Source of the DNA: Xestospongia bergquistia
Lineage: Eukaryota; Porifera; Demospongiae; Haplosclerida; Petrosiidae
Direction of reading: 5' to 3'
Assembly (NCBI GenBank): GCA_963965975.1
Contig: OZ014416.1
Span: forward strand, 1 to 64,000
DNA: 64,000 nucleotides
Shown: piece after piece, positions 2,418-63,250 of the stretch
How positions within the stretch are numbered: the first letter of the stretch is position 1
Layout: every line of letters begins with the position of its first letter
The notes under the pieces: generated by a model
What the model was told of the DNA's origin: nothing
The model's input: only the letters and a program-made list of their open reading frames with translations
The model's database searches: none
Position numbers and translations under genes: made by a program

Positions 2418-5147
2418 TGCATTGCAGAACGCTGGCCCACAACACACTGGCAATCACAACTGTTTCAGTTTCTTTATATATGTACTGAAGATTGTCTTCA
2501 TGCTCTTGTGGGGCACCTATGAATCTCATTAACGATAACTGACCAGCAATGGTCAACTAAATTGGCTGTTTAAATAATTAAAACTATAAGAAACTATATT
2601 TTTTTTAAGGGACAAGAATAAACTTATCCAATTTAAGGAGGAACTGGGCCCCACAAATACACCAGCCTCATCTCTCTTAAAGAGAGACTACCAGCCCTAT
2701 TCTCTTGTCAGCCTTTGGGATACTGCAAAGAGTAAGTAGGCTGGTAACCATCTCAGAGGTCTGATGCATTGCAGAACGCTGGCCCACAAAACACTGGCAA
2801 TCACAACTGTTTCAGTTTCTTTATATATGTACTAAAGATTGTCTTCATGCTCATGTGGGGCACCTATAAATCTCATTAACGATAACTGACCAGCAATGGT
2901 CAACTAAATTGGCTGTTTAAATAATTAAAACTATAAGAAACTATATCTTTTTAAGGGACAAGAATAAGGAGGAACTGGGCCCCACAAATACACCAGCCTC
3001 ATCTCCCTTAAAGAGAGACTACCAGCCCTATTCTCTAGTCGGCCTTTGGGATACTCCAAAGAGTAGGCTGGTAACCATCTCAGTGGTCTGATGCATTGCA
3101 GAACACTGGCCCACAACACACTGGCAATCACAACTGTTTCAGTTTCTTTATATATGTACTGAAGATTGTCTTCATGCTCTTGTGGGGCACCTATGAATCT
3201 CATTAACGATAACTGACCAGCAATGGTCAACTAAATTGGCTGTTTAAATAATTAAAACTATAAGAAACTATATTTTTTTTTAAGGGACAAGAATAAACTT
3301 ATCCAATTTAAGGAGGAACTGGGCCCCACAAATACACCAGCCTCATCTCCCTTAAAGAGAGACTACCAGCCCTATTCTCTTGTCAGCCTTTGGGATACTC
3401 CAAAGAGTAAGTAGGCTGGTAACCATCTCAGAGGTCTGATGCATTGCAGAACGCTGGCCCACAACACACTGGCAATCACAACTGTTTCAGTTTCTTTATA
3501 TATGTACTGAAGATTGTCTTCATGCTCTTGTGGGGCACCTATGAATCTCATTAACGATAACTGACCAGCAATGGTCAACTAAATTGGCTGTTTAAATAAT
3601 TAAAACTATAAGAAACTATATTTTTTTTAAGGGACAAGAATAAACTTATCCAATTTAAGGAGGAACTGGGCCCCACAAATACACAAGCCTCATCTCCCTT
3701 AAAGAGAGACTACCAGCCCTATTCTCTAGTCGGCCTTTGGGATACTCCAAAGAGTAGGCTGGTAACCATCTCAGTGGTCTGATGCATTGCAGAACGCTGG
3801 CCCACAACACACTGGCAATCACAACTGTTTCAGTTTCTTTATATATGTACTGAAGATTGTCTTCATGCTCTTGTGGGGCACCTATGAATCTCATTAACGA
3901 TAACTGACCAGCAATGGTCAACTAAATTGGCTGTTTAAATAATTAAAACTATAAGAAACTATATTTTTTTTAAGGGACAAGAATAAACTTATCCAATTTA
4001 AGGAGGAACTGGGCCCCACAAATACACCAGCCTCATCTCTCTTAAAGAGAGACTACCAGCCCTATTCTCTTGTCAGCCTTTGGGATACTGCAAAGAGTAA
4101 GTAGGCTGGTAACCATCTCAGAGGTCTGATGCATTGCAGAACGCTGGCCCACAAAACACTGGCAATCACAACTGTTTCAGTTTCTTTATATATGTACTAA
4201 AGATTGTCTTCATGCTCATGTGGGGCACCTATAAATCTCATTAACGATAACTGACCAGCAATGGTCAACTAAATTGGCTGTTTAAATAATTAAAACTATA
4301 AGAAACTATATCTTTTTAAGGGACAAGAATAAGGAGGAACTGGGCCCTACAAATACACCAGCCTCATCTCCCTTAAAGAGAGACTACCAGCCCTATTCTC
4401 TAGTCGGCCTTTGGGATACTCCAAAGAGTAGGCTGGTAACCATCTCAGTGGTCTGATGCATTGCAGAACACTGGCCCACAACACACTGGCAATCACAACT
4501 GTTTCAGTTTCTTTATATATGTACTGAAGATTGTCTTCATGCTCTTGTGGGGCACCTATGAATCTCATTAACGATAACTGACCAGCAATGGTCAACTAAA
4601 TTGGCTGTTTAAATAATTAAAACTATAAGAAACTATATTTTTTTTTAAGGGACAAGAATAAACTTATCCAATTTAAGGAGGAACTGGGCCCCACAAATAC
4701 ACCAGCCTCATCTCCCTTAAAGAGAGACTACCAGCCCTATTCTCTTGTCAGCCTTTGGGATACTCCAAAGAGTAAGTAGGCTGGTAACCATCTCAGAGGT
4801 CTGATGCATTGCAGAACGCTGGCCCACAACACACTGGCAATCACAACTGTTTCAGTTTCTTTATATATGTACTGAAGATTGTCTTCATGCTCTTGTGGGG
4901 CACCTATGAATCTCATTAACGATAACTGACCAGCAATGGTCAACTAAATTGGCTGTTTAAATAATTAAAACTATAAGAAACTATATTTTTTTTAAGGGAC
5001 AAGAATAAACTTATCCAATTTAAGGAGGAACTGGGCCCCACAAATACACAAGCCTCATCTCCCTTAAAGAGAGACTACCAGCCCTATTCTCTAGTCGGCC
5101 TTTGGGATACTCCAAAGAGTAGGCTGGTAACCATCTCAGTGGTCTGA
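2418..5147. repeat. Higher-order repeat: two copies of a 1365-bp tetramer
   Basis: Monomer lengths run 347, 327, 348, 343 from 2418 to 3782 and repeat in the same order from 3783 to 5147. The same variant bases recur at the 1365-bp offset, for example cagtggtctg in place of cagaggtctg and tactgcaaag in place of tactccaaag. Block duplication of four monomers is the simplest explanation. Confidence 0.85.
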
Positions 5148-7913: not shown

Positions 7914-10900
7914 TGCATTGCAGAACACTGGCCCACAACACACTGGCAATCACAACTGTTTCAGTTTCTTTATATATGTACTGAAGATTGTCTTCATGCT
8001 CTTGTGGGGCACCTATGAATCTCATTAACGATAACTGACCAGCAATGGTCAACTAAATTGGCTGTTTAAATAATTAAAACTATAAGAAACTATATTTTTT
8101 TAAAGGGACAAGAATAAACTTATCCAATTTAAGGAGGAACTGGGCCCCACAAATACACCAGCCTCATCTCTCTTAAAGAGAGACTACCAGCCCTATTCTC
8201 TTGTCAGCCTTTGGGATACTCCAAAGAGTAAGTAGGCTGGTAACCATCTCAGAGGTCTGATGCATTGCAGAACGCTGGCCCACAAAACACTGGCAATCAC
8301 AACTGTTTCAGTTTCTTTATATATGTACTAAAGATTGTCTTCATGCTCATGTGGGGCACCTATAAATCTCATTAACGATAACTGACCAGCAATGGTCAAC
8401 TAAATTGGCTGTTTAAATAATTAAAACTATAAGAAACTATATCTTTTTAAGGGACAAGAATAAGGAGGAACTGGGCCCCACAAATACACCAGCCTCATCT
8501 CCCTTAAAGAGAGACTACCAGCCCTATTCTCTAGTCGGCCTTTGGGATACTCCAAAGAGTAGGCTGGTAACCATCTCAGTGGTCTGATGCATTGCAGAAC
8601 GCTGGCCCACAACACACTGGCAATCACAACTGTTTCAGTTTCTTTATATATGTACTGAAGATTGTCTTCATGCTCTTGTGGGGCTCCTATGAATCTCATT
8701 AACGATAACTGACCAGCAATGGTCAACTAAATTGGCTGTTTAAATAATTAAAACTATAAGAAACTATATTTTTTTTTAAGGGACAAGAATAAACTTATCC
8801 AATTTAAGGAGGAACTGGGCCCCACAAATACACCAGCCTCATCTCCCTTAAAGAGAGACTACCAGCCCTATTCTCTTGTCAGCCTTTGGGATACTCCAAA
8901 GAGTAAGTAGGCTGGTAACCATCTCAGAGGTCTGATGCATTGCAGAACGCTGGCCCACAACACACTGGCAATCACAACTGTTTCAGTTTCTTTATATATG
9001 TACTGAAGATTGTCTTCATGCTCTTGTGGGGCACCTATGAATCTCATTAACGATAACTGACCAGCAATGGTCAACTAAATTGGCTGTTTAAATAATTAAA
9101 ACTATAAGAAACTATATTTTTTTTAAGGGACAAGAATAAACTTATCCAATTTAAGGAGGAACTGGGCCCTACAAATACACCAGCCTCATCTCCCTTAAAG
9201 AGAGACTACCAGCCCTATTCTCTAGTCGGCCTTTGGGATACTCCAAAGAGTAGGCTGGTAACCATCTCAGAGGTCTGATGCATTGCAGAACACTGGCCCA
9301 CAACACACTGGCAATCACAACTGTTTCAGTTTCTTTATATATGTACTGAAGATTGTCTTCATGCTCTTGTGGGGCACCTATGAATCTCATTAACGATAAC
9401 TGACCAGCAATGGTCAACTAAATTGGCTGTTTAAATAATTAAAACTATAAGAAACTATATTTTTTTTAAGGGACAAGAATAAACTTATCCAATTTAAGGA
9501 GGAACTGGGCCCCACAAATACACCAGCCTCATCTCTCTTAAAGAGAGACTACCAGCCCTATTCTCTTGTCAGCCTTTGGGATACTCCAAAGAGTAAGTAG
9601 GCTGGTAACCATCTCAGAGGTCTGATGCATTGCAGAACGCTGGCCCACAACACACTGGCAATCACAACTGTTTCAGTTTCTTTATATATGTACTAAAGAT
9701 TGTCTTCATGCTCATGTGGGGCACCTATAAATCTCATTAATGATAACTGACCAGCAATGGTCAACTAAATTGGCTGTTTAAATAATTAAAACTATAAGAA
9801 AATATATCTTTTTAAGGGACAAGACTAAACTTATCCTATTTAAGGAGGAACTGGGTCCCACAAATACACCAGCCTCATCTCCCTTAAAGAGAGACTACCA
9901 GCCCTATTCTCTAGTCGGCCTTTGGGATACTCCAAAGAGTAAGTAGGCTGGTAACCATCTCAGAGGTCTGATGCATTGCAGAACGCAGGCCCACAACACA
10001 CTGGCAATCACAACTGTTTCAGTTTCTTTATATATGTACTGAAGATTGTCTTCATGCTCTTGTGGGGCACCTATGAATCTCATTAACGATAACTGACCAG
10101 CAATGGTCAACTAAATTGGCTGTTTAAATAATTAAAACTATAAGAAACTATATATTTTTTTAGGGACAAGAATAAACTTATCCAATTTAAGGAGGAACTA
10201 GGCCCCACAAATACACCAGCCTCATCTCCCTTAAAGAGAGACTACCAGCCCTATTCTCTTGTCAGCCTTTGGGATACTCCAAAGAGTAAGTAGGCTGGTA
10301 ACCATCTCAGAGGTCAGATGCTTTGCAGAACGCAGGCCCACAACACACTGGCAATCACAACTGTTTCAGTTTCTTTATATATGTACTGAAGATTGTCTTC
10401 ATGCTCTTGTGGGGCACCTATGAATCTCATTAACGATAACTGACCAGCAATGGTCAACTAAATTGGCTGTTTAAATAATTAAAACTATAAGAAACTATAT
10501 TTTTTTTTAAGGGACAAGAATAAACTTATCCAATTTAAGGAGGAACCGGGCCCCACAAATACACCAGCCTCATCTCCCTTAAAGAGAGACTACCAGCCCT
10601 ATTCTCTTGTCAGCCTTTGGGATACTCCAAAGAGTAAGTAGGCTGGTAACCATCTCAGAGGTCTGATGCATTGCAGAACGCAGGCCCACAACACACTGGC
10701 AATCACAACTGTTTCAGTTTCTTTATATATGTACTGAAGATTGTCTTCATGCTCTTGTGGGGCACCTATGAATCTCATTAACGATAACTGACCAGCAATG
10801 GTCAACTAAATTGGCTGTTTAAATAATTAAAACTATAAGAAACTATATTTTTTTTTAAGGGACAAGAATAAACTTATCCAATTTAAGGAGGAACTGGGCC

Positions 10901-13900
10901 CCACAAATACACCAGCCTCATCTCCCTTAAAGAGAGACTACCAGCCCTATTCTCTTGTCAGCCTTTGGGATACTCCAAAGAGTAAGTAGGCTGGTAACCA
11001 TCTCAGAGGTCTGATGCATTGCAGAACGCTGGCCCACAACACACTGGCAATCACAACTGTTTCAGTTTCTTTATATATGTACTGAAGATTGTCTTCATGC
11101 TCTTGTGGGGCACCTATGAATGTCATTAACGATAACTGACCAGCAATGGTCAACTAAATTGGCTGTTTAAATAATTAAAACTATAAGAAACTATATTTTT
11201 TTTAAGGGACAAGAATAAACTTATCCAATTTAAGGAGGAACTGGGCCCTACAAATACACCAGCCTCATCTCCCTTAAAGAGAGACTACCAGCCCTAATCT
11301 CTAGTCGGCCTTTGGGATACTCCAAAGAGTAGGCTGGTAACCATCTCAGAGGTCTGATGCATTGCAGAACACTGGCCCACAACACACTGGCAATCACAAC
11401 TGTTTCAGTTTCTTTATATATGTACTGAAGATTGTCTTCATGCTCTTGTGGGGCACCTATGAATCTCATTAACGATAACTGACCAGCAATGGTCAACTAA
11501 ATTGGCTGTTTAAATAATTAAAACTATAAGAAACTATATTTTTTTAAAGGGACAAGAATAAACTTATCCAATTTAAGGAGGAACTGGGCCCCACAAATAC
11601 ACCAGCCTCATCTCTCTTAAAGAGAGACTACCAGCCCTATTCTCTTGTCAGCCTTTGGGATACTCCAAAGAGTAAGTAGGCTGGTAACCATCTCAGAGGT
11701 CTGATGCATTGCAGAACGCTGGCCCACAAAACACTGGCAATCACAACTGTTTCAGTTTCTTTATATATGTACTAAAGATTGTCTTCATGCTCATGTGGGG
11801 CACCTATAAATCTCATTAACGATAACTGACCAGCAATGGTCAACTAAATTGGCTGTTTAAATAATTAAAACTATAAGAAACTATATCTTTTTAAGGGACA
11901 AGAATAAGGAGGAACTGGGCCCCACAAATACACCAGCCTCATCTCCCTTAAAGAGAGACTACCAGCCCTATTCTCTAGTCGGCCTTTGGGATACTCCAAA
12001 GAGTAGGCTGGTAACCATCTCAGTGGTCTGATGCATTGCAGAACGCTGGCCCACAACACACTGGCAATCACAACTGTTTCAGTTTCTTTATATATGTACT
12101 GAAGATTGTCTTCATGCTCTTGTGGGGCTCCTATGAATCTCATTAACGATAACTGACCAGCAATGGTCAACTAAATTGGCTGTTTAAATAATTAAAACTA
12201 TAAGAAACTATATTTTTTTTTAAGGGACAAGAATAAACTTATCCAATTTAAGGAGGAACTGGGCCCCACAAATACACCAGCCTCATCTCCCTTAAAGAGA
12301 GACTACCAGCCCTATTCTCTTGTCAGCCTTTGGGATACTCCAAAGAGTAAGTAGGCTGGTAACCATCTCAGAGGTCTGATGCATTGCAGAACGCTGGCCC
12401 ACAACACACTGGCAATCACAACTGTTTCAGTTTCTTTATATATGTACTGAAGATTGTCTTCATGCTCTTGTGGGGCACCTATGAATCTCATTAACGATAA
12501 CTGACCAGCAATGGTCAACTAAATTGGCTGTTTAAATAATTAAAACTATAAGAAACTATATTTTTTTTAAGGGACAAGAATAAACTTATCCAATTTAAGG
12601 AGGAACTGGGCCCTACAAATACACCAGCCTCATCTCCCTTAAAGAGAGACTACCAGCCCTATTCTCTAGTCGGCCTTTGGGATACTCCAAAGAGTAGGCT
12701 GGTAACCATCTCAGAGGTCTGATGCATTGCAGAACGCAGGCCCACAACACACTGGCAATCACAACTGTTTCAGTTTCTTTATATATGTACTGAAGATTGT
12801 CTTCATGCTCTTGTGGGGCACCTATGAATCTCATTAACGATAACTGACCAGCAATGGTCAACTAAATTGGCTGTTCAAATAATTAAAACTATAAGAAACT
12901 ATATTTTTTTTTAAGGGACAAGAATAAACTTATCCAATTTAAGGAGGAACTGGGCCCCACAAATACACCAGCCTCATCTCCCTTAAAGAGAGACTACCAG
13001 CCCTATTCTCTTGTCAGCCTTTGGGATACTCCAAAGAGTAAGTAGGCTGGTAACCATCTCAGAGGTCTGATGCATTGCAGAACGCTGGCCCACAACACAC
13101 TGGCAATCACAACTGTTTCAGTTTCTTTATATATGTACTGAAGATTGTCTTCATGCTCTTGTGGGGCACCTATGAATGTCATTAACGATAACTGACCAGC
13201 AATGGTCAACTAAATTGGCTGTTTAAATAATTAAAACTATAAGAAACTATATTTTTTTTAAGGGACAAGAATAAACTTATCCAATTTAAGGAGGAACTGG
13301 GCCCTACAAATACACCAGCCTCATCTCCCTTAAAGAGAGACTACCAGCCCTAATCTCTAGTCGGCCTTTGGGATACTCCAAAGAGTAGGCTGGTAACCAT
13401 CTCAGAGGTCTGATGCATTGCAGAACACTGGCCCACAACACACTGGCAATCACAACTGTTTCAGTTTCTTTATATATGTACTGAAGATTGTCTTCATGCT
13501 CTTGTGGGGCACCTATGAATCTCATTAACGATAACTGACCAGCAATGGTCAACTAAATTGGCTGTTTAAATAATTAAAACTATAAGAAACTATATTTTTT
13601 TAAAGGGACAAGAATAAACTTATCCAATTTAAGGAGGAACTGGGCCCCACAAATACACCAGCCTCATCTCTCTTAAAGAGAGACTACCAGCCCTATTCTC
13701 TTGTCAGCCTTTGGGATACTCCAAAGAGTAAGTAGGCTGGTAACCATCTCAGAGGTCTGATGCATTGCAGAACGCTGGCCCACAAAACACTGGCAATCAC
13801 AACTGTTTCAGTTTCTTTATATATGTACTAAAGATTGTCTTCATGCTCATGTGGGGCACCTATAAATCTCATTAACGATAACTGACCAGCAATGGTCAAC

Positions 13901-14778
13901 TAAATTGGCTGTTTAAATAATTAAAACTATAAGAAACTATATCTTTTTAAGGGACAAGAATAAGGAGGAACTGGGCCCCACAAATACACCAGCCTCATCT
14001 CCCTTAAAGAGAGACTACCAGCCCTATTCTCTAGTCGGCCTTTGGGATACTCCAAAGAGTAGGCTGGTAACCATCTCAGTGGTCTGATGCATTGCAGAAC
14101 GCTGGCCCACAACACACTGGCAATCACAACTGTTTCAGTTTCTTTATATATGTACTGAAGATTGTCTTCATGCTCTTGTGGGGCTCCTATGAATCTCATT
14201 AACGATAACTGACCAGCAATGGTCAACTAAATTGGCTGTTTAAATAATTAAAACTATAAGAAACTATATTTTTTTTTAAGGGACAAGAATAAACTTATCC
14301 AATTTAAGGAGGAACTGGGCCCCACAAATACACCAGCCTCATCTCCCTTAAAGAGAGACTACCAGCCCTATTCTCTTGTCAGCCTTTGGGATACTCCAAA
14401 GAGTAAGTAGGCTGGTAACCATCTCAGAGGTCTGATGCATTGCAGAACGCTGGCCCACAACACACTGGCAATCACAACTGTTTCAGTTTCTTTATATATG
14501 TACTGAAGATTGTCTTCATGCTCTTGTGGGGCACCTATGAATCTCATTAACGATAACTGACCAGCAATGGTCAACTAAATTGGCTGTTTAAATAATTAAA
14601 ACTATAAGAAACTATATTTTTTTTAAGGGACAAGAATAAACTTATCCAATTTAAGGAGGAACTGGGCCCTACAAATACACCAGCCTCATCTCCCTTAAAG
14701 AGAGACTACCAGCCCTATTCTCTAGTCGGCCTTTGGGATACTCCAAAGAGTAGGCTGGTAACCATCTCAGAGGTCTGA
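7914..14778. repeat. Nested higher-order repeats at 3444 and 2056 bp
   Basis: Rare variants act as block markers. A gggctcctat variant occurs at 8681, 12125 and 14181, so the spacings are 3444 bp (ten monomers) and 2056 bp (six monomers). The ccctaatctc variant shows the same spacings. The length order 347, 327, 348, 343 begins at 7914, 11358 and 13414. Blocks of different monomer number therefore share a common four-monomer core, as expected from repeated out-of-register exchange. Confidence 0.85.
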
Positions 14779-18874: not shown

Positions 18875-20936
18875 TGCATTGCAGAACGCTGGCCCACAAC
18901 ACACTGGAAATCACAACTGTTTCAGTTTCTTTATATATGTACTGAAGATTGTCTTAATGCTCTTGTGGGGCACCTATGAATCTCATTAACGATAACTGAC
19001 CAGCAATGGCCAACTAAATTGGCTGTTTAGATAATTAAAAATATAAGAATCTATTTTTTTTTAAGGGACAAGAATAAACTTATCCTATTTAAGGAGGAAC
19101 TGGGCCCCACAAATACACCAGCCTCATCTCCCTTAAAGAGAGACTACCAGCCCTATTCTCTAGTCGGCCTTTGGGATACTCCAAAGAGTAGGCTGGTAAC
19201 CATCTCAGAGGTCTGATGCATTGCAGAACGCAGGCCCACAACACACTGGCAATCACAACTGTTTCAGTTTCTTTATATATGTACTAAAGATTGTCTTAAT
19301 GCTTTTGTGGGGCACCTATGAATCTCATTAACGATAACTGACCAGCAATGGCCAACTAAAGTGGCTGTTTAAATAATTAAAACTATAAGAAACTATATTT
19401 TTTTTAAGGGACAAGAATAAACTTATCCAATTTAAGGAGGAACTGGGCCCCACAAATACACCAGCCTCATCTCCCTTAAAGAGAGACTACCAGCCCTATT
19501 CTCTTGTCAGCCTTTGGGATACTCCAAAGAGTAAGTAGGCTGGTAACCATCTCAGAGGTCTGATGCATTGCAGAACGCTGGCCCACAACACACTGGAAAT
19601 CACAACTGTTTCAGTTTCTTTATATATGTACTGAAGATTGTCTTAATGCTCTTGTGGGGCACCTATGAATCTCATTAACGATAACTGACCAGCAATGGCC
19701 AACTAAATTGGCTGTTTAGATAATTAAAAATATAAGAATCTATTTTTTTTTAAGGGACAAGAATAAACTTATCCTATTTAAGGAGGAACTGGGCCCCACA
19801 AATACACCAGCCTCATCTCCCTTAAAGAGAGACTACCAGCCCTATTCTCTAGTCGGCCTTTGGGATACTCCAAAGAGTAGGCTGGTAACCATCTCAGAGG
19901 TCTGATGCATTGCAGAACGCAGGCCCACAACACACTGGCAATCACAACTGTTTCAGTTTCTTTATATATGTACTAAAGATTGTCTTAATGCTTTTGTGGG
20001 GCACCTATGAATCTCATTAACGATAACTGACCAGCAATGGCCAACTAAAGTGGCTGTTTAAATAATTAAAACTATAAGAAACTATATTTTTTTTAAGGGA
20101 CAAGAATAAACTTATCCAATTTAAGGAGGAACTGGGCCCCACAAATACACCAGCCTCATCTCCCTTAAAGAGAGACTACCAGCCCTATTCTCTTGTCAGC
20201 CTTTGGGATACTCCAAAGAGTAAGTAGGCTGGTAACCATCTCAGAGGTCTGATGCATTGCAGAACGCTGGCCCACAACACACTGGAAATCACAACTGTTT
20301 CAGTTTCTTTATATATGTACTGAAGATTGTCTTAATGCTCTTGTGGGGCACCTATGAATCTCATTAACGATAACTGACCAGCAATGGCCAACTAAATTGG
20401 CTGTTTAGATAATTAAAAATATAAGAATCTATTTTTTTTTAAGGGACAAGAATAAACTTATCCTATTTAAGGAGGAACTGGGCCCCACAAATACACCAGC
20501 CTCATCTCCCTTAAAGAGAGACTACCAGCCCTATTCTCTAGTCGGCCTTTGGGATACTCCAAAGAGTAGGCTGGTAACCATCTCAGAGGTCTGATGCATT
20601 GCAGAACGCAGGCCCACAACACACTGGCAATCACAACTGTTTCAGTTTCTTTATATATGTACTAAAGATTGTCTTAATGCTTTTGTGGGGCACCTATGAA
20701 TCTCATTAACGATAACTGACCAGCAATGGCCAACTAAAGTGGCTGTTTAAATAATTAAAAATATAAGAAACTATATTTTTTTAAGGGACAAGAATAAACT
20801 TATCCTATTTAAGGAGGAACTGGGCCCCACAAATACACCAGCCTCATCTCCCTTAAAGAGAGACTACCAGCCCTATTCTCTAGTCGGCCTTTGGGATACT
20901 CCAAAGAGTAGGCTGGTAACCATCTCAGAGGTCTGA
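18875..20936. repeat. Dimeric higher-order repeat, three copies of about 689 bp
   Basis: Monomer lengths alternate 342 and 347. The variant actggaaatcac occurs at about 18903, 19592 and 20281, exactly 689 bp apart. Variants such as gtcttaatgc and gctgtttaga mark the same dimers. These edge monomers differ from the array core and form their own local family. Confidence 0.85.
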
Positions 20937-21269
20937 TGCATTGCAGAACGCTGGCAATAACAACTGTTTCAGGTTCTTTATATATGTACTGAAGATTGTC
21001 TTCATGCTCTTGTGGGGCACCTATGAATCTCATTAACGATAACTGATTATATAAACAATCACTACAGTTATACTTACAGCTGAAAATGCATGATGAATTA
21101 ATTGTTCTGAATATTCTATTGCTCGAGGAAAGACAGTTTGAACATCCTAGCAATACAAAATATTATACCAAGTATTGTGTGCACTAACTTGAACTAGTGA
21201 ATCAACACCTTTTTCAATGAAATTGTTAAACATGGAGTTGATATCAGACAACAGATCATCAATACCATT
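20921..21269 (-). other. Candidate spliced exons leading into the satellite
   Basis: Three consecutive segments on the minus strand look like exons of one gene. Segment a is 21269-21189 (81 bp, 27 open codons, preceded by an AG). A 42-bp GT...AG gap follows. Segment b is 21146-21078 (69 bp, 23 open codons, begins DVQTVFPRAIEY). Then a 35-bp gap opening GTAAGT and ending ATCAG. Segment c starts at 21042, where satellite homology begins, and reads LSLMRFIGAPQEHEDN in the same frame as the open frame of every monomer. Both unique segments are multiples of three and phase is kept across all junctions. The product is not recognised. An alternative reading without the 35-bp intron gives a hydrophobic stretch (AVSITVVIVYII) and a stop just inside the repeat. 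No start codon or upstream donor is visible; repeats lie immediately upstream. Confidence 0.45.
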
Positions 21270-47351: not shown

Positions 47352-52894
<5,543 letters not shown>

Positions 52895-53150: not shown

Positions 53151-56100
53151 TTATTTCTTTTTAGAGTGACCACGTGAGGATGAGCGGCTTGATTTATCAT
53201 CAATATCTCGTTTTGATCGTTTAGCTGATGATCCATTATCATCAGAAGAACTTCTACGACGGCTTGGCGAAGATTGTCGGGGGACATCTTCTTTCTTTCC
53301 TTTACCACGCCCACTTGTATCTCGACGTCTATCTCTATCATCATGTTCTTCTCGACGTCGTTCACGATCATTTTCACGATCACGCCAATTATTATTAGGC
53401 CATGCCCCTCTTCTTTCAAAGCGAGGATCTCTTGAAGATGGACCATCTGGTTTCCCTAATCCTTGTGATGGATGTGACTCATTATTATGATGACCAGGCT
53501 CATGTTGAAATGGTCTAGAACCATCACGTGATGAATAAGGAGACTGATAGTGAGTATAATTAGAAACAGGTTGACGTTCAGTTTGTAGAGGAAATGGGTC
53601 AACATGGCCACTGCTACCACGTTGACGAGGGTCTGAAGGATGTGAAAAGTCATGTGCTTGACGAGGGTCTTGAGGTCGGAAATCTTCTTCATTATCTTGC
53701 CATTGTTTAGATGGTGGAGGTTGACGAGGGTCCTGTGGATGAAAGGGAGGCATTCTCTTCTCTTCATGCAGAGGATGCCATGGTTCTGAAGGTGTGCGTT
53801 CTTGTGGTGGACCTCCTAAGGGTCTGTCTCTATCTCCTGAAGGAGGTTGGCCACCATAAGGTCTGTCTCTATCTCCTGGAGGTGGTAGACCACCATATGG
53901 TCTATCTCCTGGAGGTGGTAGACCTCCATATGGTCTTTCTCTGTCTCCTGAAGGAAATGGACCACCATAGGGTCTGTCTCCTGAAGGAGGTGGACCGCCA
54001 TAAGGTCTATCTCTATCTCCTGAAGGAGGTAGACCACCATAAGGTCTATCTCTATCTCCTGAAGGATGTGAAGCACCATAAGATCTTTCTCTGTCTCCTG
54101 GGCCACCATAAGGTCTGTCTCCTGAAGGAGATGGACCACCATATGGTCTCTCTCTATCTCCAGAGGGTGGTGGACCACTGTAAGGTCTTTCTCCTGAAAG
54201 AGGTGGACCACCATAAGGTCTCTCTCTATCTCCAGAGGGTGGTGGACCACCGTAAGGTCTCTCTACTGGAGGAGGTAAACTGCCATATGGTCTGTCTCTA
54301 TCTCCTGAAGAAGGTGGACCACCATAAGGTCTTTCTCCTAGAGGAGGACCACCATAAGCTCTCTCTCCTGAAGGAGGAGGACCACCATAAGCTCTTTCTC
54401 GTTCTCCCAAAAGAGGAGGAGGACCTCCAAACTGCCTCTCTCTATCCCCTGGTGGAGGTGGATAGTCCCGTCTTCCCATAAACTGTTCCTCTGAAGGTGG
54501 ATGATATCCAAAATCCCCACTTGGTCGCCTTGGAGGCCCCATTGGTTCATTATATGGACCAGGGGGAGGTCTTCTTGGCTCAGTAAAGTCATTAGGACGT
54601 GGGCGGTAAACATAGGGATTATGATTCCATCTAGAGAGTAATTTATACATAAATAACTAGTGCTATAAATAACTATCAACTTACCTTTCTTCATCTAGTG
54701 AAGGTCGACGAGGATAATCTGGATTATGCCAGCTATAACGGTTACCAAACTCCTCTGGAGGTCGGTTATTATAAGATCCTAACAATAACAAATAAACAAG
54801 TAAAGACAACTTAACATATTTGTATAATAACTACCAGGTCTCCTCCACTCTCCATCCATTTCCTTTTGATCACCACGGTAACCTCCAGGAGGCATCATAT
54901 CACCTAAAAGAGGGCGTATACCACCAGGGTGAGTTGGGGGATGACCTAATATAATATCAAACTTAAACAGCAATAATTTTCAAACATTACCATGAAACTC
55001 ATTCTTAATTTCAATGGGTCCATTTTGATGAAAAGGGGGTCCTGATTTATCTAAAAGGAGACATTCCAACATTGAAAAGTTAATATTTGACTTTACCAGC
55101 AAATGTTTCTGCAATGATATCAGCTCCTAATACTGGTACATCGTGAGGTGGAGGTGGTGGAAGTTGGGAAGATGGAGCGAGAGGACCACTATGTAAAAAA
55201 TAATCATACAGTCTACTTATATAAATTACCTATCAGGTGGCATATTCCTGGATTTCCAGGCATCACCAGATGATGGTGGTGGTAAAGTGACAGCACCAGT
55301 TACAGGTTGAGGTAGCCCAGTATCGTTAACCACACCCATTCCAGGAAGATTGTATGATGCCATTGTATCTATTGCATCAACAAAAATGTAATAATTATAT
55401 CATATAACATACCCATTTCATCTCCAAGATAATAAGGATTGTGAAAACTGTTATATTTATCTTTTAACTCTTCACCTGGTCTATTCCGACACCAAAATTT
55501 ACTAACATGATACAAAAATGATCACAATGATGTAGTAAATAAATCACTTACCATGTATGATCATTAGCACCAGAACACAGTAAATGACCTAATGGATGCC
55601 ATGATAATGACCACACAAATCCTTCATGAGCAGATTCCATACCACCCACCTCACGATCATTGCTAAAGCAAACTATAAAACCAATGTTGCCATGGAAACA
55701 CACACTAACCCCACCAACCAGAATAGAACTGCACCATCTGACCCACCACTAGCAAATAACTTTTCATGTACAGGATGCCATGACAATGCTGTATTATTAA
55801 AAAGTATAATATATATACATTATAACATCTACTAACTGTTGACATCTTTCTTGTGTCCCTTGAGTATAGCCAGTTCTTTCATTGTTCTTATATCATATAA
55901 TTTAATAAGATAATCTCGTGATGCTGTTGCTAACCAGTTACCATTTTGATTCCATTTTAAATCCATTACAGTAGCTTTATGTGCATGTCTGTACAACAAT
56001 ACAACATTATACTATATACAATGTACTACTAACATTGTACAAACACTATGGCCAGACTTAGGATCCCATAACTTCACTGGTTGTTGATTATCTTTACTAC

Positions 56101-57165
56101 CAGATGCTAAAAGACTTTTACGAGGATGCCAATCAAGAGATTTAACATCAGCACCATGACCTACGTTGGACACAAGTCAGGGAAGGGTCGACAGTACCAT
56201 ACCTCGCAGAATATGCTCCTCAGTGCAGCATAAGAAATCAAAGATTCTAACAGTACCATCATCTGAACAAGTAGCTAACTTAGCATCAGTTGGTGAAAAG
56301 CTATCAGGAAAAAAGGTGTTGTATTATCACACCAATTTTACTACAAGTTGGCATAGCAACCGCTTTTACTAACTACTATTAATGTTTTATAATTAAATTG
56401 TATGGTGTACAAGTCATTACATGCACAAAATACAGTCACATGACTATCACATGACCTAGTATAATCCCACCTGCTACTGCGTATAGGTTCACTATGTGCT
56501 TGAAATGTATGCACATTGTTAAAATTGATTTGCCAGTACTTAACAAAGCCTCGGTCATCAGTAGTCACCATCCACTTGCCATTATGACTCCATTTCATGC
56601 TTCGTACTGAGCAATCATGAGCCTATAAACACGTAATAATATTAATATATTTATTTGATCACACCTACTTGTATAATAGATTCAAAATTAAAGTTGATAC
56701 CATTCCATAATGTGAACTCACCACTGGCAGCACCAGTAATGAGACGACGCCCATCTGGAACCCACTAATGGTGTATATATAACGTTACCATAGCAACATC
56801 TTTAATTACTTACAGCTGTACTAAATATAGGAGAACGTGCTTTGTTTGTACAGGCTTTAACAAATTTTGTTGTTACTGCATTAACTGGGATATCTATCAT
56901 GCCATGTGGTGTAGAAACTTCATTATAGTAGGTGGAGTCTGGTTGAATAAGTGGAACATCTCGTTTATCTCTTTGCCATAGCCGATTCTATAATAAAGTA
57001 ACATAATAGAATCACGTGATCTATACTTACTTCTAAGTAGTGTAAAGTTGAGGCGTGATAATCTACTGTTTTTCTCATTAATAAACGACGACCAAGAACT
57101 GCTGCTCCACCACTAATTCCTACAGGAGTAGGAAACGTGGGAGACATCAACAGAGGCTCATTCAT
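53151..57165 (-). CDS. WDR33: pre-mRNA 3'-end processing protein WDR33 (CPSF subunit)
   Basis: Sixteen exons give 927 residues: 57165-57031, 56987-56814, 56764-56669, 56622-56471, 56300-56203, 56160-56034, 55988-55837, 55788-55710, 55662-55552, 55501-55413, 55368-55230, 55188-55097, 55050-54991, 54945-54835, 54778-54685, 54630-53151. Family motifs are continuous: [118 protein letters not shown]33 is the CPSF subunit that, with CPSF30, reads the AAUAAA signal. Seven WD repeats cover about 90-405. The rest is Pro/Gly/Arg-rich, with a tandem [13 protein letters not shown]-type repeat and a basic RS-like tail (KRSKRDIDD to [12 protein letters not shown]). Its start is 218 bp from SSU72, on the opposite strand. 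Confidence 0.96.
53811..54470 (-). repeat. Coding minisatellite in WDR33 ([11 protein letters not shown] units)
   Basis: Within the last WDR33 exon about twenty imperfect units encode GDR(E/D)RPYGGPPPS or a shorter GERPYGGPP form. Unit lengths of 11-15 codons keep the frame. The unit count is probably unstable. All three minus frames and one plus frame are open here, which produces long spurious frames. Confidence 0.9.
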
Positions 57166-57383
57166 GACTGAACCTGCCTCTTAAATTGACAAAAATTCAC
57201 GAGGTTGAATCACGTGAGTATTACCACTCTTATTAATGCCCTGTGGTGTCAACAGAAGGTCCTTCCTCTACTCTGACAGTCATCTCTCTCTCTCTTTTTC
57301 TCTCTCGGTGGCACCATTACAAGTTTCTACTGTTTTTAAAAGAGTGACTGATTCCAGTTGTAATAGAGTATAAATTAATATTT
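57166..57383. promoter_or_regulatory. Bidirectional intergenic region WDR33 / SSU72
   Basis: Divergent start codons are 218 bp apart. The gap contains a tcacgtga palindrome (57210-57217) with the E-box CACGTG and a CT-rich tract at about 57284-57307. A tataaatta near 57370 is too close to the SSU72 ATG to act as a normal TATA box. Shared control of two 3'-end-processing factors is plausible. Confidence 0.6.
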
Positions 57384-58434
57384 ATGATCATGTCATTAAA
57401 AATAGCTGTAGTATGTTCAAGTAATCAAAATAGAAGTATGGAAACACATCATTTATTAAGGTAGTTATTCCCAGTGTCCAATCAGTACTGTTACAATATG
57501 TTTACAGTAAAAAGGGTTTCAATGTGAAGTCGTATGGTACAGGATCTGTTGTTAAATTACCAGGGGCATCAGCTAATGAACCTATTGTATATCCGTTTGG
57601 CACAACTTATGAGCAAATGTATGAAGACTTATATCTTAAAGATCCTCATCTGTATCCATAGCAACCAAGAGTCACTTGAACACATTTTATTTATTTTTGT
57701 AATTCAGTTTTGTAATATCAAACATAATGCATTGTTTTCTAGTTCATCGTTGCCATGACAACTTATTATTGCTATTGAAGTAAGTTATATATTTAAATAA
57801 CACACACTATTTCTTTTATTGTTTAGGACCTGACTTATGAATATCATTATTGCTGGTAAACTTATGTATAAATTATTTACTGATCAAGAAAGGGTTTGAT
57901 ATTTGCATATGTTATACACAATATAAGATTATTAAATGACAGAACTTAAGTTCCTTAATTGTTACATTATTAGATATACACAGAATGGTATATTACGGAT
58001 GTTAGATCGAAACAGACGTATTAAGCCAAGCCCCGAACGATTTCAAGATATCAATGATGATATATTTGATGTTGTATTTACTGTTGAAGAACGCATATTT
58101 GATGTTGTTATTGAGGGTAATAGAATTAACAATACCAGAACAATACTGATATTTTTCTGTGTAGAACTTGAGTCTCGTGGTCCATCTCATTATCATCCTG
58201 TCCATGTCATTAATATTGACATACAAGATAATCATGATGAAGCTACATTTGGTTCATTTCTGTTCTATGAAATGTGTGAAATGGTAAATATCATTATATC
58301 AGTTACTATGGTAACTCTCATCCCCTCAGATGAGTAAGGCAGATGATCTCGAGAATGAAATGGAATTCATTTTGCAAGAATTTGAAGCTAAACATAGTTC
58401 AAGAACTATATTACATTCAGTTATCTTTTGTTGA
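57384..58434 (+). CDS. SSU72: RNA polymerase II CTD phosphatase SSU72
   Basis: Five exons give 195 residues (human 194): 57384-57460, 57508-57651, 57974-58116, 58165-58283, 58330-58434. An in-frame ATG at 57390 would give 193. The active-site loop CSSNQNRS, the C(X)5R signature, starts at residue 11. Other family phrases are SYGTGSVVKLPG, YTQNGILRMLDRNRRIKPSP, ERIFDVVIE and INIDIQDNHDEATFGSFL. SSU72 removes phosphate from Ser5 and Ser7 of the Pol II tail and works within the cleavage and polyadenylation machinery. The second intron (57652-57973, 322 bp) is long for the locus. The stop codon directly abuts the PTCD1 stop on the other strand, and the first AATAAA downstream (58527-58532) lies inside PTCD1. 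Confidence 0.96.
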
Positions 58435-60151
58435 TCATTTTAATTCATTGTTTGTTGTCCATTGTCTTTTCCAAAGTGTAAAATAGCCTTTGAATCCATT
58501 ATAATTATGAACTAGCCATTGTTTCTAATAAAGTCACATGACTTAAGTTATTGTATCACATGACTACACATACTTTAGGAGGACAACTACTAGCCAATTC
58601 TAACTGTTTCATTAAAATATCTGAAGGCATAACTTCATTAAATTTCATATCCTACATCAAAAACATAATATAATGATAATTTAACATATAATTTGTACCT
58701 TGAGGATTTTAATAACACATTCATAATCATTATATTTCATTCTATTGTTAATGAGAACTTCATATAATGATATATTAGCAACATCACCATTTTCCTACAA
58801 AACACTCTACAATGTCATAATGACATCATATTAATTACCTTGATTTCCTTCAATAGATTCATAGCATCTTCTTTAGATTGACAGCTGCGTCCTTTTTCCA
58901 AGTAATAGTTGTCTTCCATCATAATACCAAAGTCATGAGTAATGTCCAATAAATCCTACAAATAATAAAAGTCTCTCTGCCTCTCTCTCTCTCTCTCTCT
59001 CTCTCACTTTAGCTCCTTCTTGGTCTCCAAGTTGTCTTCTTCTAGTAATTGCAGCTTTAACAAATGTTTTATCTAACTCAACTGGTTTAGAGTTAGTCAG
59101 ACAGTTCATATCAACAGCTAATGATACCAGCATTGTGTATGTTCGAATATCAGGAGAAATTTTATTTGCTCTCATATGATACAATATACTATTGATATCT
59201 TGTGATGTTAACCATCGAATGCCTTTGGATGAAATATATAAAGTTATTGTAAAAGGCTTTGTCTCTCCTTGGAATGATAACGCAACTTCTTTCTTAGCTC
59301 TCAGATATTTCTGATTGCTAGGTATGACAGTCACATGACTACTCGGATTGGTCATGTGATCAGGTAAAGTACAATCTCTTAGACATAGTAGTAATGTGTT
59401 ATAACAATATAGTTGAGGTGCGAGTCCACTGTCATAAATAGCTGACCATATCTCACTAACTTTATCAAGATTATGGCCTTTAGCACAACCTAGTAGTAAC
59501 ACACCAAATGTTTCAATAGTTGGATCTGTCATATTAAGATATTCCTCAAACACTTCATTGGCACGACCACAGTGTACTAATGCAGATAACATTGCATTAT
59601 ACGATGTACTGTTAAGTGACACCTGATGACGATCAATTTCTGCTAATACTTTATTTAATACAGCTCCTCCTTTAACAGGTCCAGCTTTAGCACATACACT
59701 AAATAAACTAGAATATGTTCGATCAGATGGTATTAAACCTCTCTTCTTTAACTATAAAACAACCAATATACACTTATAATATTAACCCTTTGACAACATA
59801 CGTTGTTAAAACATTGAAATGCTTTACGAACATCTCCCTGCACTACATATCCAGATAATAATGTGTTATATGATACAGTGTCAGGACGAACACCTCGATC
59901 TAACATGTTGTGAAATATCTTCTCAGCTGACTCCACCTCAGGTAAATAATAAAATGATATTACATATAAATGTAATACTGACTTACTTTTCCTTGCTTTA
60001 TTAACCCCAACATGTTATAGAGGTATCTATTTTTACGGACTGCCCATATATGACGGGTCTTGTTGCTCCCTTGACCAGATGACAACCTGGTATATCTTAC
60101 TAGCCATTTTGATGAGGTCCATAAACACCCTCTATACAAACTTAATGCCAT
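58435..60151 (-). CDS. PTCD1: Pentatricopeptide repeat protein, PTCD1-like
   Basis: Seven exons give 474 residues: 60151-59987, 59936-59802, 59751-59008, 58955-58839, 58794-58699, 58651-58574, 58524-58435. The basic N-terminus (MALSLYRGCLWTSSKWLVRY) fits a mitochondrial presequence. PPR units include VRPDTVSYNTLLSGYVVQGD, KRGLIPSDRTYSSLFSVCAK, NSTSYNAMLSALVHCGRAN and SPDIRTYTMLVSL. Collinear phrases with vertebrate PTCD1 are RRQLGDQEGAKDLL, CVIKILKDMKFNEVMPSD, MKQLELASSCPP and NGFKGYFTLWKRQW. PTCD1 acts in mitochondrial tRNA and 16S rRNA maturation. It is shorter than the human protein (about 700). The donor of the intron 59007-58956 sits in a (GA)n run. Its final exon lies entirely within the expected SSU72 3' UTR. 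Confidence 0.88.
58975..59005. repeat. (CT)n microsatellite at a PTCD1 splice donor
   Basis: A nearly pure CT run of about 26 bases sits on the plus strand. Read on the minus strand it forms the first bases of a PTCD1 intron, GTGAGAGAGAG and on. The length of this short intron is therefore set largely by a mutable dinucleotide repeat. Confidence 0.9.
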
Positions 60152-60338: not shown

Positions 60339-63250
60339 CTAATTTGATGTGTCCTGAACAACTTTAGCTGGATCAAATCTCTCTGTTATTTTACCCATTT
60401 TAATTAGGACATCATCAATAAGGGACCAGAGGGAATTACCCTTGACATAATCATTGTCAACTAAGTTAACAAGAAAATATGTATTATGTATAAATCTGAT
60501 AACTCCATTAGATGGTGAATCATCTGGATACAGAGTAGCCCAATGAGTCTGCCATAATGTAAAGGCTTCATCCTATAGTTAATAATAATCTTAATTAAAG
60601 GGGCAACAAACAGAGAACAACAATTAATTAACTATAATACCTTCCAGTACATAAATGCATCAGGGTCTACTACAGTAGGCTGTAGTATTTCTTTACCAGG
60701 GAACACACCCCACGTAACAGCAATAGGAGATTGAGGATGACAATTAGTCAAATCATGTGTACCCTATACAAACAACACATACATGTATACATATATACAT
60801 GTACATATATACATGTATATATATACATGTACATATATACATGTGCACATATACATGTACATATATACATGTACATATATACATGTACATATATACATGT
60901 ACATATATACACGTGCACATATTCTTGTACATATATACATGTACATATGTACATGTACATATATACACGTGCACATATTCTTGTACATATATACATGTAC
61001 ATGTACATATATACACGTGCACATATTCTTGTACATATATACATGTACATATATACATGTACATATATACATGTACATATATACACGTGCACATATTCTT
61101 GTACATATATACATGTACACATGTACATGTATAATATTTACTTCTTTGTTGACAATATGATAATTTATTAGAGGATATGTAGGAAGGACTTCTAATAGTG
61201 TGTCTACAAACTGTTGACTAGCAAAGAACTCAAGATATGCCTACAAACATAATAATAATAATTACATGTCTTGTTAAACAGATAACACCTTCTGATATAC
61301 ATAGCCACCAGGAGTACCCCATCCATGAACTGGATCGGTAGAAGGTTTTCCATTAACTGATGGCTGACTGTTAATAGTCAGGACACCATTTCTGTTAACA
61401 TGAGCTAATTGTTCTATAATCAATGTTGTCTCAATAGCTAATTCATCATCATTCCAAGGAAGAGATGTAACCTACATAATATATTATATAATTATATATT
61501 TATCAACAAGGAATCATATACCTTGACACCATTCTTGTTTTTCTTTCCAGTAATGTAACATTCAAAAATATGATGTACATCTTCACAGTTCTCCAGTTCT
61601 TCCCCCCACATTGCACGACGAGTCTCTGGCTTAGTACGACGACAAAGATAGAACAGGTAATAATCCTAAAATACATTGACATAATGATATTCTTCATGAC
61701 TAATAACTCCACCCACTTTTAATTCACCAAAAGCAGGACTAGCTGATGATCCCCATCGTCCATTCGGAAAGTCATCCCACTCTTGCGTACGATGGATGTA
61801 ACTTTTAGGACGAGTAGCCCAAAATATTGGCCTGGTAGTGGGTGTGGTCAATATATATAATCCATTATGACAATATTACCTGACATCTTCTGCGAAACGT
61901 CTTTTGAGATTAGCTGACTGTTTCCATGGCAATGCCTTGTGAGCAAGAGGGTCTTCACACCAAAGTCCCAATTGTCTTAAAATGTCACTGACAGCAACTT
62001 CTCTGTTTAAAGTATAGAAATGAAGTCCATTGACCTACAACAATGTTACAGAGAGTTATTAAAAATTCCTTCATTATATATATATACATAATGTGTCCAT
62101 TTTATAACTCACTATTCCACTATCAAATAATTCTTTACACATTTTAACAGCAAGATCAACTCCATAATTTCTAACAGCAACATCATTATCTTTAATAGGT
62201 AATATAACATCACGTATTGCTTGAGGCACTTCAAGTTTGGACAACTTTGTAAGATGACGCAATGACTCATAGCCTTGTATAGGCAGAATACCCGGTATTA
62301 TAGGGACAGTAATACCCACCTCACGACAATCACGATAAAATTTAAGATATGTTGACGTTTCAAAGAAGAGTTGTGTAATAATAAAATCAGCACCTGCATC
62401 AACTTTTTCCTTAAGATGAATAATATCACTGTAATAGTCTGGACACTCAGGGTGTCCATGAGGATATCCTATATCGTTAGAAATAATAAATAATACTGAT
62501 CCATAACTTTACCAGCAACACATATAGTAAAATAGTCTCCAAATTCTGCTCTGATATGTTTCACAAGATCAATAGCATAATTAAACCCATCTTTATTAGG
62601 GGTCCACTCATTAGATTCTGGTGGATCTAAAACAAGTTATTATAATATATTCAATTTTTAGAATTACTTACCTCCTCTTAATGCTAGTATATTCTTTATA
62701 CCAAGTAACTTGGCCTTCGTCAAATATTGAGTGATCTCATCTTTAGTAGAACTAGCACAAGTTAAATGTAACATTGTATCAAGTCCACAAAATGTCAATG
62801 CTGTACTAGCTATCCTCATTGAACTTGTCTCCTGATCTCCACCTTTAACAACATCAAAACTATCAATATCTATTGACTCTTACCTGGATTTCCAGCTGCG
62901 TGCCATGTGACATCACAAAAAAGAGGACCTCCTGAGAACATGCGATCAAAACGAGCAATTAAATTACTAGCTCCAGCTGGAGTACGTGGAGGGAAAAACT
63001 CCAAAGAAAAGAATCGATCTCCCCCATCAATGTGACTTTGTATCTTATCAATAAGATTAGTTGATGCATTGAAAGGAGATGAAGAACGTGGGATATTATC
63101 AGTACTACCACTACGAGAGGAACCAGCTGAGGATGGTACACCACTACTGCTACTACTTGGATAGGGCCATCCCCTCTCTGACTGAGTTAGAGGACCAAAT
63201 GTGGGAGCAGATTGAACCCTTTGAAAAGCATACTCACTCCCATCAGCCAT
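60339..63250 (-). CDS. MTHFR: Methylenetetrahydrofolate reductase
   Basis: Eleven exons give 686 residues (human 656): 63250-62884, 62842-62672, 62626-62513, 62468-62113, 62034-61880, 61831-61717, 61665-61522, 61471-61289, 61240-61142, 60763-60641, 60572-60339. The start is the first ATG ([12 protein letters not shown]); upstream codons in the frame offer no other ATG. A Ser-rich N-terminus ([13 protein letters not shown]) corresponds to the phosphorylated regulatory tail of animal MTHFR. The catalytic barrel holds [52 protein letters not shown] and [12 protein letters not shown]. The C-terminal SAM-binding half includes [30 protein letters not shown] and [19 protein letters not shown]. The enzyme makes 5-methyl-THF with FAD and NADPH and is inhibited by SAM. 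Nine introns are 41-78 bp; the one at 61141-60764 is 378 bp and filled by a microsatellite. Confidence 0.96.
60769..61135. repeat. Alternating purine-pyrimidine TACATGTACATATA repeat in MTHFR intron
   Basis: About 360 bp consist of variants of a 14-bp unit (acatgtacatatat) with interspersed cacgtgcacatattcttg blocks that recur four times near 60911, 60967, 61015 and 61087. Apart from the ttcttg steps, purines and pyrimidines alternate strictly and every unit is palindromic. Both strands stay open in several frames, giving spurious 117-146 codon ORFs. Such tracts can extrude cruciforms or adopt Z-form DNA. Confidence 0.93.

Follow-up and report, generated by a model that had tools for sequence, protein, structure and literature searches.

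Head-to-head genes are frequent in the sponge Amphimedon queenslandica, whose genome has an AT content of 64.2% and a median intergenic distance of 587 bp (PMC4773876). According to the same account, 18,054 genes (45%) are arranged head to head, with start sites lying within 1 kb of each other in 11,379 of 40,122. A G-box-like E-box was reported to be four times commoner in the bidirectional promoters of this sponge, and a poly-CT motif to occur in many of its promoters (PMC4773876).

Published work on the function of head-to-head neighbours is divided. Neighbouring human genes were described as often co-expressed and rarely functionally related, and pairs less than 50 kb apart as somewhat enriched in similar functions; bidirectional pairs of yeast and human were stated not to code for two subunits of one complex (PMC5572396). 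Other reports characterize head-to-head pairs as prone to co-express and co-function (PMC4089025, PMC3024869), and the pairs that tend to share function were identified as the conserved divergent ones (PMC2871058).

Here we describe a divergent pair formed by the WDR33 and SSU72 genes of the sponge Xestospongia bergquistia. The analysed stretch of DNA (64 kb, hereafter the window) is the beginning of contig C6 in a genome of 146.46 Mb distributed over 21 contigs. It is AT-rich (GC 36%) and gene-dense, and its introns are short. The locus resembles those described for A. queenslandica in its head-to-head genes, a gap of less than 1 kb (measured here from start codons), the presence of a G-box together with a poly-CT tract, and an AT-rich compact genome (PMC4773876).

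Gene models of WDR33 and SSU72

A preliminary description of this DNA had named the two genes WDR33 and SSU72, and both names were confirmed by matches to the human proteins. The WDR33 model encodes 1062 aa without an internal stop, and 15 of its 15 introns are of the GT..AG type. Its reading frame has an in-frame stop, followed by five codons and then by the ATG. When residues 1-392 (the WD40 part) were used as the query, human WDR33 (8e3i_B) was matched with E=3.6e-181 and 605.8 bits, whereas, among the best 60 of 712 matches, yeast Pfs2 reached 264.9 bits and the next WD40 chain 217.4 bits. By these scores, assignment of the gene to some other WD40 protein was ruled out.

The SSU72 gene consists of the exons 57384-57460, 57508-57651, 57974-58116, 58165-58283, and 58330-58434, separated by four GT..AG introns. 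Its product of 195 aa has no internal stop and matched the human SSU72 chain 3o2s_B over residues 4-194 (E=1.1e-75). A search of the whole genome with PF04722 yielded three matches, each of them an exon of this same gene. We saw no sign that SSU72 is broken or duplicated: its frame is open, and it was the sole gene recovered by the genome-wide PF04722 search. When prokaryote and viral contig collections were scanned with SSU72, no relative was confirmed. Start codons and splice sites of both models were picked by eye. The coordinates are collected in Table 1.

Table 1. Features of the WDR33/SSU72 locus and the other divergent gene pairs with measured gaps
Feature	Position	Strand	Size of gap or basis
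WDR33 (CPSF subunit WDR33 / yeast Pfs2 orthologue)	53151..57165	-	16 coding exons, match to human WDR33
SSU72 RNA polymerase II CTD phosphatase	57384..58434	+	5 coding exons, human SSU72 match, PF04722
Gap between start codons, probable bidirectional promoter	57166..57383	.	218 bp
Palindromic G-box / E-box TCACGTGA	57210..57217	.	motif scan
Poly-CT (pyrimidine) tract	57283..57306	+ (SSU72 sense strand)	sequence
Aminotransferase-like gene / Jagunal gene	window, starts 39416 and 39468	- / +	51 bp, tightest of the seven
Neuralized-domain gene / OGA-type NAGidase gene	window	divergent	140 bp
TRAF gene / GEF-like gene with WD40_2 domain	window	divergent	390 bp
CPSF100 / HHH_8-match gene (below Pfam cut-off)	outside window	divergent	137 bp
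DDB1-like / RASSF-like gene (latter below Pfam cut-off)	outside window	divergent	288 bp
CstF77 / TIR gene	outside window	divergent	360 bp

The gap between the start codons

The two genes are adjacent, lie on opposite strands, and have their 5' ends facing each other, i.e., they are arranged head to head. The start codons at 57165 (WDR33, minus strand) and 57384 (SSU72, plus strand) leave exactly 218 bp between them, and the opposite orientation and the distance given in the preliminary description were thus reproduced. The 1-kb limit refers to start sites and the 218 bp to start codons; the distance between the start sites would be different if a 5'-UTR contained a long intron.

Two motifs known from Amphimedon promoters were present in the gap, a G-box at 57210 and a poly-CT tract at 57283-57306. 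Simple patterns for a GC-box and NRF1 gave no match in it. The four divergent gaps of the window add up to 799 bp and hold two of the five TCACGTGA sites of the window (binomial P 0.0015, a count made once the sites had been seen); the two remaining gaps of these four contained no CACGTG. Among the three divergent gaps outside the window, two copies of CACGTG were found in the CstF77/TIR gap and none in the other two. We can fairly infer that the WDR33/SSU72 gap probably acts as a shared bidirectional promoter.

We also considered whether SSU72 might be driven by a TATA element, the TATAAAT that closely precedes its ATG. This reading was not adopted, since transcription beginning 25-30 bases further downstream would probably start inside the SSU72 coding sequence.

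Other divergent pairs

The ATG-to-ATG gaps of seven divergent pairs, with start codons chosen by eye from open frames, were 51, 137, 140, 218, 288, 360, and 390 bp, which puts the WDR33/SSU72 gap (218 bp) at the median. An eighth divergent pair, of AdoHcyase-domain and actin-like genes (region L009), lies outside this set. The labels aminotransferase, GEF, and MUS81-like (the last for the HHH_8 gene) are our own reading; no Pfam match was obtained for the aminotransferase-like fragment. Partners in the three other divergent pairs of the window are without evident functional relation.

Neighbours of other 3'-end factor genes

Clustering of 3'-end factor genes was checked by eight Pfam searches for other factors, and 14 regions were fetched. 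Nine of these regions contained accepted 3'-end or Integrator factors: CPSF160, CPSF100, CPSF73, INTS11, FIP1, symplekin, poly(A) polymerase, CstF77, and CFIm25. This set leaves out CPSF30, CstF64, CstF50, PCF11, CFIm68, RBBP6, and WDR82. The symplekin call is based on one Pfam exon match, and a further open frame was assigned to symplekin without a Pfam match. Regions L009 and L011 were dropped from the set as containing SF3B3-like and DDB1-like genes (the names are our reading). Region L012 was dropped as well; it holds a Beta-Casp fragment that shares the strand of CPSF73, lies 17 kb away from it, and may belong to the CPSF73 gene. Regions L016 and L017 had CLP1_P matches without a clear CLP1 gene and were likewise removed, and the CLP1_P search of the genome revealed no clear CLP1 gene.

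No two of the nine factors were located within 300 kb of each other, and none was on contig C6; the shortest distance, 312 kb, separated CPSF100 from poly(A) polymerase. The upstream neighbour on the opposite strand could be named for six of the nine, and no 3'-end factor was among these six; in four of the six cases a small gene may lie in between. The six were a TIR protein, a MyTH4 myosin, a gene with a weak HHH_8 match (below the Pfam cut-off), NDUFA9, a BET bromodomain protein, and a dual-specificity phosphatase. The NDUFA9 and BET bromodomain fragments were named by PDB search alone and had no Pfam match. The upstream neighbours of FIP1, symplekin, and CPSF73 are without a name; no Pfam match was obtained for the ORFs upstream of FIP1 and of symplekin or for two ORFs near CPSF73.

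In the INTS11 region (L015, G000:C11:5148000-5157500), the BET bromodomain gene lies upstream on the opposite strand, perhaps not as the immediate neighbour. INTS11 and this gene are themselves loosely connected, through transcription by RNA polymerase II. Themes are therefore easily found among neighbours.

Repeats and motifs of the window

The word TCACATGA was strongly over-represented, with 76 copies on both strands of 196 kb of the genome; among 300 words of equal composition sampled for comparison, the median was 6 copies and the maximum 74. Successive TCACRTGA sites within 60 bp formed 21 pairs, 10 of them spaced 11 bp and five spaced 21-22 bp. Both spacings are close to the DNA helical repeat. 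Sites of the TCACATGA type were located in the window at 47692-47710, 51234-51272, 52294-52322, 56436-56454 (a WDR33 intron), 58534-58563, and 59331-59359 (an open frame with PPR repeats); one at 53524 falls in a WDR33 exon, and others were seen in regions L008-L011.

Four identical minus-strand open frames of 99 aa (2931-3230, 8427-8726, 11871-12170, and 13927-14226) and a fifth, longer variant (20809-21162) make up a long-period repeat in the first 21 kb of C6, at the contig end. A dense palindromic ATATACATGTAC-like satellite occupies 60790-61130, by eye in an apparent MTHFR intron (PF02219 at 62074-62508).

Interpretation of the pairing

Very probably, the gap is an ordinary bidirectional promoter of a compact genome. 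Two genes of general cell upkeep, which by chance both serve one broad process (3'-end formation of mRNA and dephosphorylation of the RNA polymerase II CTD), stand head to head across 218 bp. One open region with the G-box and the poly-CT tract is probably common to both genes, and polymerase may start from it in both directions. Since closely spaced head-to-head genes abound in sponge genomes of this kind, the pairing most likely reflects chance in a crowded genome and no designed partnership. A different arrangement would be one with no common promoter, in which separate core promoters lie within the 218 bp or beyond it (e.g., by way of a 5'-UTR intron) and the two genes are regulated independently or even in opposite ways. 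Such an arrangement would fit the positions of the G-box, nearer WDR33, and of the poly-CT tract, just past the midpoint of the gap towards SSU72, as expected for two abutting core promoters, and also the second G-box at 57012, inside the first WDR33 intron. Nevertheless, 218 bp is about the size of one open promoter region, which speaks against two promoters. Both types of motif are, moreover, known from Amphimedon promoters, the G-box mostly from bidirectional ones (PMC4773876), and we regard separate promoters as improbable.

The preliminary description had further proposed that the two genes share a divergent promoter for the co-regulation of partners in one machinery. The gene identities, the orientation, the 218 bp, and a probable bidirectional promoter are upheld; the purpose ascribed to the pairing is not. 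Were the pair a selected functional unit, its bidirectional promoter would coordinate WDR33, which reads AAUAAA, with the CTD phosphatase SSU72. The Ssu72 review lists both Pfs2 and Ssu72 as components of yeast CPF, and pairing within a pathway is unlikely when taken alone: 0.002-0.03 head-to-head pairs within the set would be expected by chance genome-wide for one pathway, for sets of 20-60 genes in a genome of 20,000-40,000 genes, of which one third are assumed to be paired bidirectionally. A coincidence would therefore be uncommon for one process fixed in advance. Here, the process was not fixed in advance, and thousands of pairs and many processes could have prompted a like remark, which is our judgement and not a computed value. 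The dispersal of the nine other 3'-end and Integrator factors over distances of more than 300 kb also counts against a selected unit. To our knowledge, WDR33 and SSU72 are not neighbours in human, fly, yeast, or Arabidopsis either, which points in the same direction. Pairing for co-regulation is likewise not supported, given the 45% of head-to-head genes in Amphimedon, the partners without evident relation in the three other divergent pairs of the window, and the six named neighbours of 3'-end and Integrator factors. Selection for joining the two products is not supported, and we consider a selected unit very improbable. We give as little credence to the broader idea of a co-regulation unit selected in sponges, with the amounts of CTD phosphatase and poly(A)-signal reader set jointly by a single G-box promoter.

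Comparison with known gene pairs

No report on a WDR33-SSU72 pair was found in the literature searched (supplementary gene lists were outside the search), and the single passage on WDR33 in the Ssu72 review does not mention the gene pair. If it has been selected, the pair would represent a rare example, in an early-branching animal, of two components of one machinery being joined by a bidirectional promoter. At present, it mainly illustrates how readily a very gene-dense genome yields meaningful-looking pairs.

The human NELF-E/SKIV2L pair is similar in that two genes of RNA metabolism are placed head to head over a short region (PMC6769589). Its linkage was also described in shark, zebrafish, and coelacanth, and a 176-bp fragment of its bidirectional promoter was tested (PMC6769589), which sets that pair apart from WDR33/SSU72 with its putative promoter. 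While WDR33/SSU72 is known here from one genome, HSPD1/HSPE1 is common to different species, and the two pairs are alike in combining divergent orientation with related function (PMC2871058).
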